A stretch of DNA of 59,709 bases, taken from NCBI GenBank assembly GCA_005877775.1, contig VBOJ01000076.1:1-59709 (forward strand). Reading direction: 5' to 3'. The stretch comes from Nitrospirota bacterium (GTDB lineage Bacteria; Nitrospirota; Nitrospiria; Nitrospirales; Nitrospiraceae). A program made the position numbers and the translations under genes. The notes beneath the pieces were generated by a model. That model saw only the letters and a program-made list of their open reading frames with translations. It had not been told where the DNA came from and made no database searches. Below are positions 1,151 to 52,525 of the stretch, in pieces (the stretch's first letter is position 1; every line of letters begins with the position of its first letter).

Positions 1151-1247
1151 TAGTCAAGCAGCCAATAGTAAAAAACGAAGAGTAATTTTTCTAAGCAGGT
1201 CGCCTGATCTTTCCGAATTACAGGGATGACGTGCTCTTCCTAACCGG

Positions 1248-1652
1248 TCACCGGGTCCCACGTGAAGATGGAGGCTTCGAAGCGGCTTGACTCCGCTCCT
1301 GCATCAAGCGGTTGAGGGCGTCTCCGAGTTCGTGAAGGGAGAATCCTTTGTGTAAAAACTCGGTCACGCCCAATGCACGAGCCTGTTCCTCCTCCGTTTC
1401 CGTTCCAACTGCAGTCAGAATAATCACGGGAGCGTGGGGGTTGATCTGGCGAATTTGCCTGAGTGCCTCGATCCCGTTCATGTTTGGCATCTTGAGGTCC
1501 AGGATCGTGATGTCCGGGCGTTCGCGCCGAAACACATCAATCCCCTTCTGGCCGTGGTCCGCTGTGAGGACTTGATGCCCCTTCCGCCGTAACAGCGTGT
1601 CCAGCAGATCACGGATCTTGACGTCATCATCTACTGCGAGGACTCTAGCCAT
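1248..1652 (-). CDS. Stand-alone response regulator receiver (REC) protein, copy A
   Basis: MARVLAVDDDVKIRDLLDTLLRRKGHQVLTADHG...DITILDLKMPNMNG...VIILTAVG; CheY-like. Confidence 0.9.
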   Translation of the reverse strand: MARVLAVDDDVKIRDLLDTLLRRKGHQVLTADHGQKGIDVFRRERPDITILDLKMPNMNGIEALRQIRQINPHAPVIILTAVGTETEEEQARALGVTEFLHKGFSLHELGDALNRLMQERSQAASKPPSSRGTR

Positions 1653-48783: not shown

Positions 48784-48859
48784 GGCGGTGTAGCTCAGTT
48801 GGTAGAGCAGCGGACTCATAAGCCGCGGGTCGGCGGTTCGATCCCGCCCACCGCCACCA
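48784..48859 (+). tRNA. tRNA with CAT anticodon (tRNA-Met; tRNA-Ile2 not excluded)
   Basis: GGCGGTG/CACCGCC acceptor, TAGCTCAGTTGGTAGAGC D-arm, anticodon loop CTCATAA, GGCGGTTCGATCCCGCC T-arm, encoded CCA. Confidence 0.93.
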
Positions 48860-48880
48860 GCCTTCGCGCCCGCGAGGGCT

Positions 48881-48908
48881 GCCCGCCATAGCTTGAGCGA
48901 CGGCGGGC
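48881..48908. repeat. REP-like hairpin after the tRNA
   Basis: gcccgcc (48881-48887) / ggcgggc (48902-48908). Confidence 0.55.
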
Positions 48909-48957
48909 AAAACTACTTTCTCGCTACGGCTGGCATGCCACCCTGAAGCTGATTACC

Positions 48958-49315
48958 GGAAGCCCTGCAACTAGCTCGTCACGCAAGAGTCAGACGCCTG
49001 CATCTATCCGCCTTGAGAGGCGAGTCGGCGACGGTTGGAGGTTCGATTCCTCTCGCCAGCTTCAGCACTCAAGGAGAACCTCCAACCGGGGAGTTCCGAA
49101 GAGGGTATGCCCTCTTCGTGGAGATCGTACAAGGGGGAAGCCCTGCAACTAGCTCGTCACGCAAGAGTCAGACGCCTGCATCTATCCGCCTTGAGAGGCG
49201 AGTCGGCGACGGTTGGAGGTTCGATTCCTCTCGCCAGCTTCAGCACTCAAGGAGAACCTCCAACCGGGGAGTTCCGAAGAGGGTATGCCCTCTTCGTGGA
49301 GATCGTACAAGGGGG
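48958..49315 (+). repeat. Two tandem copies of a 178-bp unit with a tRNA 3'-end-like segment and strong hairpins
   Basis: ggaagccctgcaactagctcg... starts at 48958 and 49136 and appears identical over the unit; contains GGTTGGAGGTTCGATTCCTCTCGCCAGC, cggttggaggttc/gaacctccaaccg and cgaagaggg-tatg-ccctcttcg. Confidence 0.9.
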
Positions 49316-49332
49316 CTGGCCCCCTTTGTAGG
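49309..49332 (+). terminator. Terminator-like hairpin after the tandem repeat
   Basis: aaggggg-ctgg-cccccttt. Confidence 0.5.
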
Positions 49333-49558
49333 AGGCGGTGAGGGAAGCTTCAGAGCCGAACCGGCGACGGCGACGGCTCGTTACCCTCCACCAATACCAC
49401 CAAACTATCCCCCTACAGCTAACGTGTTCACTCAAAACAGACCTGCGGATTACCGGTTCAGTTTTGGACTTTCGGGTAGCGAGCAATCTTGACTTCTCCT
49501 TTTCTGTCAATGTGTTGCTGGCAATGTGGCTGTTGGAAGTATATTAGAAAATTAATTG

Positions 49559-49622: not shown

Positions 49623-50681
49623 ATGATTCCACCGTTCCTCAAACGGGACCGCCTCGCCCCCAGCCTACTGCTTGGACGCATCTTGCTGATTCTTGTCGTC
49701 ACCCAATTCACCGACACAACCAGTCTCTCTGCCTGGGACTGGGTGCCTTCGGAAGAGGAGATTCAAAAGTACCGAAAGAGTTGGAACCCGTTTTCGCACG
49801 GCCCCATTCTGCTTCAAGCGGTTGATATCCAACCAAAAGGCCAATTGTCAATCCGTGAGTTTTTGTTCTCGCAGATCGGCGAGAGCACCTTTGGCAACCG
49901 GCTCAGCTTTCCAACCGAGAGCAAACCTGGCCCGGTTCATGTCTATCAGGTTTCCCCATCGGTCAACAGCGCGTATGGCATCACCGACCATATCGAGCTC
50001 GGCGTTGCCATCTCCATGAATGCCTTTTGGGCAAGACAAAATGGAAAGGAAACGACCGATACAGGTCTGGGTGATACATCCCTGATCATGAAGTACCGTC
50101 CCATCGTCCAAGACCCAGACGGGTGGCGGCCGACAATCACCCATTTCACTCAGCTCGTCCTTCCCACAAGCCAATGGATCACTGGCACGGAAAGACCACC
50201 AGGTGGGTTTTCATCGCTCGGCCGGCTACCGAACACCCGATTTGGCGAGTGGGGGTTCACACAAGGCATCATGACTCGAAAAATTCTCGAACCGTTTCGA
50301 ATCAGTGCAGCCGTCTTCTATACGTATGCAGCCCCTGGAAATACCGCGGGGCGTAACACTTACAGTGGAGATGTGATTAATACTCGCCTCATCTTTGAGC
50401 ATATCCTCGATGACAAGAAAGGGTTCGGGTACAACATCGAGATCAGTACCCTTCACGGATCGACGTGGCGCACAGATGGTCATTCGATTAACAGTGGGCA
50501 GTTACACGGCTTCTCCATCATTGGGGTGGAACCGGCCCTTCAATGGAAAATGGGTGAGCATTGGGTCGCAGCTGCAGGATGCCTGTTCACCGTGGCGGGA
50601 CAAAACGCAATAAACGCAATCTACCCGAATTTTTCGATCTTCTGGTACTGGAGCAAGACCGGCAAGGTGATCATGCGGTAA
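49623..50681 (+). CDS. Outer-membrane beta-barrel-type protein (paralogue 1)
   Basis: Signal-like N-terminus; KYRKSWNPFSHGPILLQAVDIQPKGQ, TDTGLGDTSLIMKYRPIVQDPDGWRPT shared with 55642-56781. Confidence 0.7.
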   Translation: MIPPFLKRDRLAPSLLLGRILLILVVTQFTDTTSLSAWDWVPSEEEIQKYRKSWNPFSHGPILLQAVDIQPKGQLSIREFLFSQIGESTFGNRLSFPTESKPGPVHVYQVSPSVNSAYGITDHIELGVAISMNAFWARQNGKETTDTGLGDTSLIMKYRPIVQDPDGWRPTITHFTQLVLPTSQWITGTERPPGGFSSLGRLPNTRFGEWGFTQGIMTRKILEPFRISAAVFYTYAAPGNTAGRNTYSGDVINTRLIFEHILDDKKGFGYNIEISTLHGSTWRTDGHSINSGQLHGFSIIGVEPALQWKMGEHWVAAAGCLFTVAGQNAINAIYPNFSIFWYWSKTGKVIMR

Positions 50682-51783
50682 CGGTCGCCATTCCATCTCG
50701 ACGTGGCACCAAATGAACGGCGCCGGCTTTGATCGCGGCCACAACCGCAACCCCAGGGGCAAGATGTAAGTCGTCCAGGGCGGACCGGGTCACAATCGCG
50801 GAGAGTGAAAATCCGCTGTCAATTCCCACGCGAACCAATGCTCCCAGCGAACTGACCTCACGCACCTTTCCGACAAGGTGGTTCCTGGCGCTCGTCGCTC
50901 CAGCCCCAACAGCTTCAAGGACAACGTCCTCCGCCCTGATGCAGACAAACACCGCTGATCCTGACTCCTCGGTGGCGAGCGCCACGAGCTTCGTCCCGGC
51001 GACTTCGACCGTGGCAAGGCCATTCGACGACTCGATGATCCGCCCCTGCACGACGGTTTCGACGCCGACGACACGGGCCACTTCGGCATTCAACGGACGG
51101 CTAAACACCTCCTGCGGCGTGCCGATCTGAAGCACTCGACCTTCATGGATCACGGCCATTTGATCTCCAAGCGCCAACGCCTCTTCCCAGTCATGCGTTA
51201 CCACCACAGACGGGATCGCGAGTTGCTTGAGCAAGGTCCTGAGCTCTCCGCGCAGCTTGGAACGAGTCGGAACATCGAGCGCAGAAAGGGGTTCGTCAAG
51301 CAATAACAGACGTGGATGGCGCGCAATCGCCCGCGCGAGAGCAACCCGTTGCTGTTGACCTCCGGACAGTTGAGCAGGTCGCAAGTGTTCCACGCCCTGT
51401 AACTGAAGAAGAGTGAGAACCTCCACGACACGCCGTTGTCGTTCGTCAGCGGTCAGCGCGCCCAACCCATAGGCAATGTTGCCTGCAACCGAGTGGGTAG
51501 GAAACAAGGCGTACTCTTGGGCCATGTAGCCGATCGCCCGCTGTTGTGGAGGGAGCCTCACACCCGCAGCTGTGTCGAGCCAGGTATCCTCCCAGCACGT
51601 GATGCGCCCGCGTTCCGGCGACTCCAATCCGGCTAAGCACCGGAGCACCGTCGTCTTTCCGGCGCCGGATGGGCCAAACAGGATCAGGACAGTGGGCGGT
51701 TCAAGAGTCTGCGCAAAACGAGCGTCGATCGTCATTCGGCCTGGAAAGGACTTCGTGATGTCGACGATCATTTCTGAGGCCAT
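50671..51783 (-). CDS. modC: Molybdate ABC transporter ATP-binding protein
   Basis: GPSGAGKTTVLRCLAGLESPERG, LSGGQQQRVALARAIARHPRLLLLDEPLSALD, C-terminal TOBE domain (ARNHLVGKVREVSSLGALVRVGIDSG). Confidence 0.93.
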   Translation of the reverse strand: MASEMIVDITKSFPGRMTIDARFAQTLEPPTVLILFGPSGAGKTTVLRCLAGLESPERGRITCWEDTWLDTAAGVRLPPQQRAIGYMAQEYALFPTHSVAGNIAYGLGALTADERQRRVVEVLTLLQLQGVEHLRPAQLSGGQQQRVALARAIARHPRLLLLDEPLSALDVPTRSKLRGELRTLLKQLAIPSVVVTHDWEEALALGDQMAVIHEGRVLQIGTPQEVFSRPLNAEVARVVGVETVVQGRIIESSNGLATVEVAGTKLVALATEESGSAVFVCIRAEDVVLEAVGAGATSARNHLVGKVREVSSLGALVRVGIDSGFSLSAIVTRSALDDLHLAPGVAVVAAIKAGAVHLVPRRDGMATVTA

Positions 51784-52442
51784 AACGCCCACACTTTCCG
51801 GTTCATCGCATACACCGCCAGCAACACACCGTACGAGATCGCCAGGAGAAACAGCGCGGTCTTGGCAGCTCCCGCATAGTTGAGCGCTTGCACCTCATCA
51901 TAGATGTCAATGGACACAGTCCTCGTCTCCCCTTCGATATTCCCGCCAACCATCAGCACCACGCCAAACTCCCCCATGGTGTGGGCAAAGCTCAACACAA
52001 GGCCGGTCACAACCCCGGCCACCGATAACGGAATGATGAGCTTGAAGAAGGTCTTCACACGCGAGACACCCAGAGTCCAGGATGCCTCAACGAGACGACG
52101 TTCCACCTGATCGAACGCCGTTGCAAAAGGTTGGACTGCAAAGGGAAGACTGTAGAGCATCGAGGCGAACAGGAGCCCTTCAAAGGTGAACGGCAACGGA
52201 TGACCGACGAGACTCGTATAAAACCGTCCAAGCGGGCTGTGCGGACCGATCGCGACCAAGATATAGAAGCCCAGGACCGTCGGGGGCAGCACAAGCGGCA
52301 GCGCGACCACCGATTCGATCAGGAACTTCCAGCGCCATCGTGAGAAGCTCAACCAATAGGCAAGCGGCAACCCGATGACGAGCAAGATCAGAGACGTCAG
52401 GGTCGCGAGTTTCAGGGTGAGGGCGATCGCTATCCAGTTCAC
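51768..52442 (-). CDS. modB: Molybdate ABC transporter permease
   Basis: GLPLAYWLSFSRWRWKFLIESVVALPLVLPPTVLGFYIL, TLGVSRVKTFFKLIIPLS, SFAHTMGEFGVVLMVGGNI; GTG start likely at 52442. Confidence 0.93.
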   Translation of the reverse strand: MNWIAIALTLKLATLTSLILLVIGLPLAYWLSFSRWRWKFLIESVVALPLVLPPTVLGFYILVAIGPHSPLGRFYTSLVGHPLPFTFEGLLFASMLYSLPFAVQPFATAFDQVERRLVEASWTLGVSRVKTFFKLIIPLSVAGVVTGLVLSFAHTMGEFGVVLMVGGNIEGETRTVSIDIYDEVQALNYAGAAKTALFLLAISYGVLLAVYAMNRKVWALWPQK

Positions 52443-52525
52443 AACTGCCTGCGCCTCCCCGCATAAACTTGGCTGCAACGTACGTGATAGTAGGGAGGCG
52501 CCGCTAGAAAAGTCATCGGACTCGC

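Follow-up and report, generated by a model that had tools for sequence, protein, structure and literature searches.

A rearranged copy behind tRNA-CAT of an apparently undescribed family of structured tRNA-tail elements in Nitrospira and its relatives

Genes for tRNA are usually seen as being regulated through their promoters and through decay, and as passive integration sites; the T-loop is one sublocation of such integration, reportedly distinguished by Williams in 2002. The closest described systems are the islands that integrate at tRNA genes, including those of the Islander type, with attL and attR, and those that are cis-mobilisable. As PMC4383910 describes them, these islands regenerate their target and displace a fragment of it. 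The tRNA-tail elements described here share with them insertion at a tRNA 3' end, a direct repeat of that end and possible tandem arrays, but they are only about 150-190 bp long, have no gene, and carry a structured core and a segment antisense to the local T-arm (here antiT), none of which belongs to att geometry. MITEs and REP-type palindromic repeats are likewise short, non-coding, hairpin-rich and repeated across genomes, and one subset of our cores lies inside a MITE; the tRNA class, however, has no terminal inverted repeats, which are confined to the second, MITE-borne class, and it occupies specific tRNA genes and carries tRNA-specific flanking segments.

Three RNA systems also invite comparison. 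The trailer sponge 3'ETS-leuZ of E. coli resembles the present case in that the candidate RNA comes from a pre-tRNA trailer; it reportedly pairs with small RNAs, whereas a tRNA-tail trailer would pair with its own tRNA and carry a second 3' end and a core. Group I and group II introns in tRNA genes, through their IGS or EBS, similarly place a structured core after a segment that complements the adjacent tRNA and covaries between sites. The tRNA-tail element, in contrast, has no Rfam intron match, and the tRNA upstream is complete at 66 tRNA-adjacent loci, so that no splicing is needed; an intron of either group was rejected on these grounds. Riboswitches and attenuators such as the T-box have the same kind of mutually exclusive helices, here among the tRNA strand, antiT and the second copy of the tRNA end, but for the tRNA-tail element there is no known ligand or downstream regulated gene, and the RNA controlled would be the tRNA itself.

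The window, by which we mean the whole 59,709-nucleotide stretch of DNA analysed, comes from a 3.06-Mb draft genome in 309 contigs, and the parts of the tRNA-CAT locus given below lie on the forward strand. A resident tRNA gene with anticodon CAT occupies 48784-48859 (ARAGORN; 68.1 bits with the Rfam tRNA model), and is the only tRNA that ARAGORN reports in the window, with no second complete cloverleaf. After a gap of 98 bp comes the tandem on which the sequence-only reading had remarked, an exact repeat of 178 bp in 2.0 copies, 100% identical, at 48958-49135 and 49136-49313, far beyond chance expectation. The gap itself (48860-48957) is a palindromic spacer, GCCTTCGC..GGGCTGCCCGCC..GGCGGGC, which matches positions 27329-27407 of contig C249 at 76% and is a different repeat, present too behind the tRNA-Thr(UGU) gene of the same genome. 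A palindromic repeat of the form GCCTTCGC...GGCTGCCCGCC...GGCGGGC lies close to several tRNA genes of this genome or directly behind them (window 48860-48945; L008 3330-3420; L010 about 1190-1260, minus strand), and a further repeat downstream of tRNA genes, located after the CCA, has the form TACCGCACTTCGTGTGA or TACCAAGCTTCGCTTGA and continues into a CCGCC...GGCGG hairpin (L014, L037, L039, L053 and others). Beyond the element, at window positions 50671-52478, are reading frames that by their sequence resemble an ABC transporter ATPase and permease pair, perhaps for molybdate.

Within each 178-bp unit, a remnant of the right end of the core, CTTGAGAGGCGAGTCGGCGACGG (49012-49034 in unit 1, repeat family D2; 49190-49212 in unit 2), retains 83% identity with the true core end at 49348-49370. 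It is followed by GGTTGGAGGTTCGATTCCTCTCGCCAGC (49033-49060, and again 178 bp on at 49211-49238), a T-arm and acceptor 3' strand with no 5' half. The likeness of this 28-nt piece to a tRNA-Thr 3' end, proposed at the outset, became an identity on comparison with the tRNAs of the genome: it equals the 3' end of the tRNA-Thr(UGU) that contig C249 carries intact. The perfect 13-bp inverted repeat that had been expected to sequester this T-arm was likewise located in both units (49032-49044/49076-49088 in unit 1). Its second arm is antiT (49076-49088, matching at 13/13 positions; 49254-49266 in unit 2), which begins 15 nt past GGTTGGAGGTTCGATTCCTCTCGCCAGC, complements the 5' part of that piece, namely the Thr(UGU) variable loop and T-stem 5' strand, and stands in the same position relative to the core as antiT does in the 66 tRNA-adjacent elements.

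Unit 1 contains a partial core, comprising P1 and the 5' arm of P2 (49089-49135 by profile match; 49089-49212 by covariance model, 42.8 bits). A nearly complete core, P1-P2-P3, spans 49267-49370 and scores 115.3 bits (E 4.9e-18) with covariance model R1, of which it is itself one of the 25 founding cores. Helix P1, the hairpin CGAAGAGGG-TATG-CCCTCTTCG, occupies 49275-49296 and is present in unit 1 as well (49097-49118), as had been claimed; P2 occupies 49305-49330, and P3, which has an internal loop of the tandem G-A type, 49334-49365, all three being visible in the sequence and covarying in the family. The hairpin after the second unit had been thought terminator-like, but there is no T-run at 49305-49330 and GGAGGCGG follows; it is P2, and a rho-independent terminator is ruled out. 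Since P2 belongs to the core at 49267-49370, the end of unit 2 and the sequence downstream of it form one nearly complete core, part of which lies beyond the interval originally considered (48860-49332). Behind the core, at 49374-49405, is a decayed second copy of a tRNA 3' end of the tRNA-CAT type (CGGCTCGTTACCCTCCACCAATACCACCAAAC), whose best local alignment, with a score of 34, is to the Met-type second copy of G003, as against 17 for the Thr type.

The left module of the window copy (Thr-UGU 3' end, spacer, antiT and P1) resembles the intact tRNA-Thr(UGU) element of a genome of the same genus (L028 in G001). The orthologous tRNA-CAT of that genome (L234) has no element, and the tRNA-Thr(UGU) of the window genome has none in the roughly 275 bp behind the gene. 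The window copy is chimeric: its left module is of the Thr-UGU type, its locus is that of tRNA-CAT, and it has undergone tandem duplication. The simplest account, judged from the sequences, would be that two elements recombined, so that the Thr-UGU left module came to adjoin the core end and decayed second copy belonging to tRNA-CAT, and that duplication came next. Because its left module is recombined and duplicated, this copy is probably not intact. A three-unit array behind tRNA-Gly(GCC) in the one-contig assembly of G041 indicates that tandem arrays are not merely an assembly artefact. In another genome (G110), the tRNA-Gly(CCC) and tRNA-Gly(UCC) elements (L122 and L123) share a spacer of about 100 nt and antiT and have different cores, a module exchange as in the window.

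Almost certainly, the window copy belongs, in rearranged form, to a family of non-coding tRNA-tail elements, about 150-190 bp long, that appears to be undescribed. A DNA search with window positions 49245-49380 gave matches in 22 of 61 genomes (the host and its relatives), mostly directly behind tRNA genes, and including a third family, f2 (G046, G051). The covariance model detects the core in 81 of the 147 genomes sampled from the same family and, across a phylum-wide sample, in 42 of 246, every one of them from the window genome's order (from its own family or from f3). When 84,980 species genomes were scanned with a stricter pattern, every matching record was titled Nitrospirae or Nitrospira; the matches include Ca. 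Nitrospira defluvii (FP929003.1) as well as Nitrospira moscoviensis (NZ_CP011801.1), both of which carry the element behind tRNA-Gly(CCC). With Rfam 15, nothing on the core exceeds a gathering score, which only tRNA genes and one SRP RNA reach, and a known RNA family is thereby ruled out. Viral contigs, phages and plasmids searched with the core gave no match, which counts against a phage or plasmid origin. In the open full-text literature, no description of such a tRNA-tail element was found.

The association with tRNA genes is strictly oriented: a same-strand tRNA lies within 300 nt upstream of 67 of the 104 full-length copies, and an opposite-strand tRNA of none (0/104). The typical order is a complete tRNA, a spacer, antiT, P1-P2-P3 and a second copy of the last ~25 nt of that tRNA, spanning T-loop to CCA. 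This second copy often has one extra T-stem base, placed in the 5' strand in ordinary tRNAs and at the boundary of T-loop and 3' strand in tRNA-Ser. Among the hosts are tRNA-Gly(CCC), with 23 copies, and Thr(CGU), with 13; others are Thr(UGU), Gly(UCC), Ala(CGC), Asp(GUC), Met(CAT), Ala(GGC) and Ser(CGA, GGA), and more distant copies lie behind Gly(GCC), Leu(GAG) and Ser(GCU, UGA). Redundant tRNAs with C34 (Gly-CCC, Thr-CGU, Ala-CGC, Ser-CGA) host 43 of the 66 tRNA-adjacent copies, a count drawn from samples that are not independent. Four elements sit between tRNA-Gly(UCC) and a downstream same-strand tRNA-Thr, and probably lie within a tRNA operon.

Several loci depart from this order. At L061 the first 3' half of tRNA-Gly(CCC) is deleted, so that the 5' half joins antiT and the core and only the second 3' end is left; this is either a pseudogene or a tRNA that requires the long fold. 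At seven others (L070, L073, L138, L018, L119, L129, L059) only a tRNA 3' half, from the anticodon loop, precedes the element. These look like the displaced ends of islands integrated at the anticodon loop, and we have set aside retrotransposition of tRNA halves in favour of such ordinary islands. A complete core away from any tRNA occurs at about 3280-3425 of L009 (minus strand; contig C250 of G000), with a GGGTGGAGGTTcaaaACCTCCACCC hairpin before it; it lies upstream of a reading frame that, by its sequence, resembles an RRM-type RNA-binding protein.

A second context is provided by a MITE with inverted repeats of the CTAGCCCGCATTATTCACGA type, inside which about 20 core copies sit (L103, L114, L092, L099, L100, L105, L116 and others), none of them beside a tRNA. 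Shorter MITEs without a core occur in the same genomes (plain copies L183 and L196), and the repeat end is found 30-76 times in six of the seven genomes searched and 7 times in the remaining one; no transposase was identified for this MITE family. In these copies a self-contained hairpin (for example GAGGCGGGG-taac-ACCCCGCCT) stands at the position of antiT, and since it fills that place, we read the pairing of tRNA T-arm and antiT as a structural helix, P0.

The core itself, about 104 nt long with three hairpins, shows the covariation expected of a structured RNA. Among 25 aligned cores, 15 of the 28 pairs are altered on both sides and 97.7% of cells remain paired; none of 500 shuffles reached so high a value, and sliding the partners abolished the signal. 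The covariation that the sequence-only reading had wished to see in relatives is thus strong, and exceeds both controls. Mismatched cells of P1 and P3 on the tRNA-sense strand are G-U far more often than A-C (61 against 11), a bias suggesting that this strand folds, whether as RNA or as single-stranded DNA; P2 has no such excess (24 against 21).

The antiT segment comprises 12-17 nt complementary to the T-arm of the local tRNA. It matches its own tRNA in all 66 tRNA-adjacent elements tested, at 9 to 12 of the best 12 nt, so that the antisense arm is kept complementary to whichever tRNA precedes it. In most tRNAs the target runs from the end of the variable loop through the T-stem 5' strand into the T-loop; in tRNA-Ser and tRNA-Leu, which have long variable arms, it is the T-loop and the 3' strand instead. 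At 50 of the 52 distinct loci, antiT has its better partner in the functional first tRNA copy, not in the second, so that mimicry of tRNA by a structured RNA, as first imagined, is not supported as the main idea, even though a true tRNA-Thr 3' end and a covarying core are indeed present. Between the tRNA strand and antiT, 48 distinct loci hold 107 two-sided changed cells against 38.8 expected, and the Thr(CGU) loci by themselves, in which the T-stem varies from genus to genus, hold 19 against 7.6 (0/500 shuffles as high in either case); the register of antiT was chosen to give the best match, a choice that raises the percentage paired in both counts and is an unlikely source of matched two-sided changes this large. 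We dropped G-U asymmetry in antiT as a proof of RNA pairing, the deviations of this type (26/470 against 9/250, p = 0.28) showing no significant enrichment.

Computed minimum-energy folds agree with a P0 helix: it reaches at least 8 bp in 41 of 59 native sequences, compared with 10 in which antiT was swapped between isotypes and 2 in which it was shuffled, and the mean gain over tRNA and trailer folded apart is 8.9 kcal/mol, against 5.2 (swapped) and 4.9 (shuffled). The 5' acceptor strand pairs with the second copy in 57 of the 59 native folds, but also in 57 swapped and 55 shuffled ones; this pairing is therefore not evidence for a function of antiT, and the preference may be an artefact of the energy model.

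Overall, these observations suggest that the element folds together with the tRNA preceding it. We favour, with slightly less than even confidence and on the strength of sequence comparison, a co-transcribed RNA that would pair in cis with its own tRNA through P0. The element would be transcribed as a pre-tRNA trailer and would act at the RNA level: antiT would capture the variable-loop end and T-stem 5' strand of the tRNA, followed by P1-P3 and a second T-arm, P4. Because this fold and the normal cloverleaf are mutually exclusive, the element would act as a switch among tRNA, anti-tRNA and a spare tRNA end, one that would delay, divert or condition the maturation of its tRNA. At the same time, since the normal tRNA is transcribed first, folding during transcription would favour it, and this counts against the P0 model; patchy presence, decayed copies and empty sites fit an element that is dispensable or selfish no less well than they fit a regulator.

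The main rival, a possible if doubtful reading in our judgement, is a DNA-level mini-element integrated at the tRNA T-loop or 3' end by a tyrosine recombinase supplied in trans, wherein the ~25-nt repeats would be attL/attR identity blocks that rebuild the tRNA, and antiT and the hairpins would be recombinase-binding sites or folded single-strand recombination structures. Consider the genus of Ca. N. defluvii, in which the tRNA-Gly(CCC) site is filled in some genomes and followed by an uninterrupted downstream flank in others. The empty site of G061 reads CGCCCGCTCCA-AACAAATCTTTCC, and the filled site of G030 has the element and then CGCCCGCTCCA-AACAAGTCTTTCT, a comparison that defines the element as a discrete unit. 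Empty and filled orthologous sites thus differ by one unit flanked by a direct repeat of the tRNA 3' end, T-loop to CCA, the very geometry of tRNA-integrating islands, and tandem arrays would be accounted for by repeated integration or by recombination between att-like repeats. Against this stand the absence from the element, too short to encode one, of an integrase or any other gene, and the lack of core matches among viral contigs, phages and plasmids noted above. Nor does a recombinase site explain why antiT tracks a T-stem strand that lies outside the identity block, or why compensatory changes run throughout P1-P3. Core sequences, moreover, cluster by tRNA and not by genome: the nearest neighbour lies at the same tRNA in another genome for 48 of 63 cores, and at another tRNA in the same genome for 1, so that there is no sign of recent hopping between tRNAs inside one genome. 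Synteny is not decisive as a proof of vertical descent, since single-copy tRNA loci are syntenic regardless, and an origin of the spacer as duplicated downstream flank is ruled out by a shared prefix of only 0-3 nt in 56 of 63 loci.

The same empty sites bear on an unlikely alternative, a selfish homing element devoted in each lineage to a single tRNA and copied by way of an RNA or single-stranded intermediate, for which antiT would be the targeting guide. Its tRNA-specific lineages, patchy presence and precise empty sites would resemble those of homing introns, and antiT does resemble a guide or exon-binding sequence, but no reverse transcriptase, nuclease or other gene is linked to it. In addition, several empty genomes (G081, G061, G098) are closer to the filled G030 than are other filled ones (G118, G106, G075, of which G106 and G075 hold decayed copies), so that empty sites may be losses through recombination between the ~25-nt repeats.

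We consider very unlikely a simple scar, in which the element would be a functionless duplicated attachment site or tRNA fragment. Fragments of tRNA left by integration are common (PMC9897764), displaced 3' halves from the anticodon loop are present at the seven loci that include L070 and L073, and the window copy is itself rearranged. The integration-site remnant duplicated by recombination that the sequence-only reading had offered is borne out in its ~25-nt tRNA 3'-end repeat and in the recombined and duplicated state of the window copy, for which alone a scar could still hold. For the family a scar is contradicted, because a covarying core recurs in more than half of the sampled family genomes and behind no fewer than ten kinds of tRNA gene. 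Same-tRNA pairs with core identity of at least 0.88 have spacers that resemble each other only as much as unrelated sequences do (0.49 against 0.488) and second copies that average 0.89; the pairs were picked by core identity, so that only the contrast with spacer and flanks is informative.

Finally, a trailer RNA cut from the pre-tRNA and acting in trans as a sponge or decoy, which would bind mature tRNA, pre-tRNA or the modifying enzymes through antiT and the T-arm mimic, would draw on the complementarity of antiT to the functional tRNA, on the extra base of the second T-arm that lowers self-pairing with antiT, and on the reported precedent of 3'ETS-leuZ, but it is highly improbable, as antiT matches the adjacent tRNA and P0 pairing in cis covers the same facts.

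Returning to the cis-acting RNA, we tentatively propose, as a doubtful further step, a new RNA class, limited in the genomes sampled to the order that includes Nitrospira, that would make the transcript of a tRNA gene bistable: either a normal tRNA, or a long form in which antiT captures the T-arm strand and the spare 3' end closes the acceptor stem around a structured insertion of about 170 nt. If true, the bistable transcript would use the tRNA itself as the basis of a switch or of a selfish structure. Regardless of mechanism, annotators should be warned that tRNA-like fragments occur in these genomes. The tRNA-tail element would represent either RNA-level control exerted on individual tRNAs or a new minimal mobile element that targets tRNA genes, and because its carriers include cultured or well-studied organisms such as Nitrospira moscoviensis and Ca. 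N. defluvii, both readings are directly testable.
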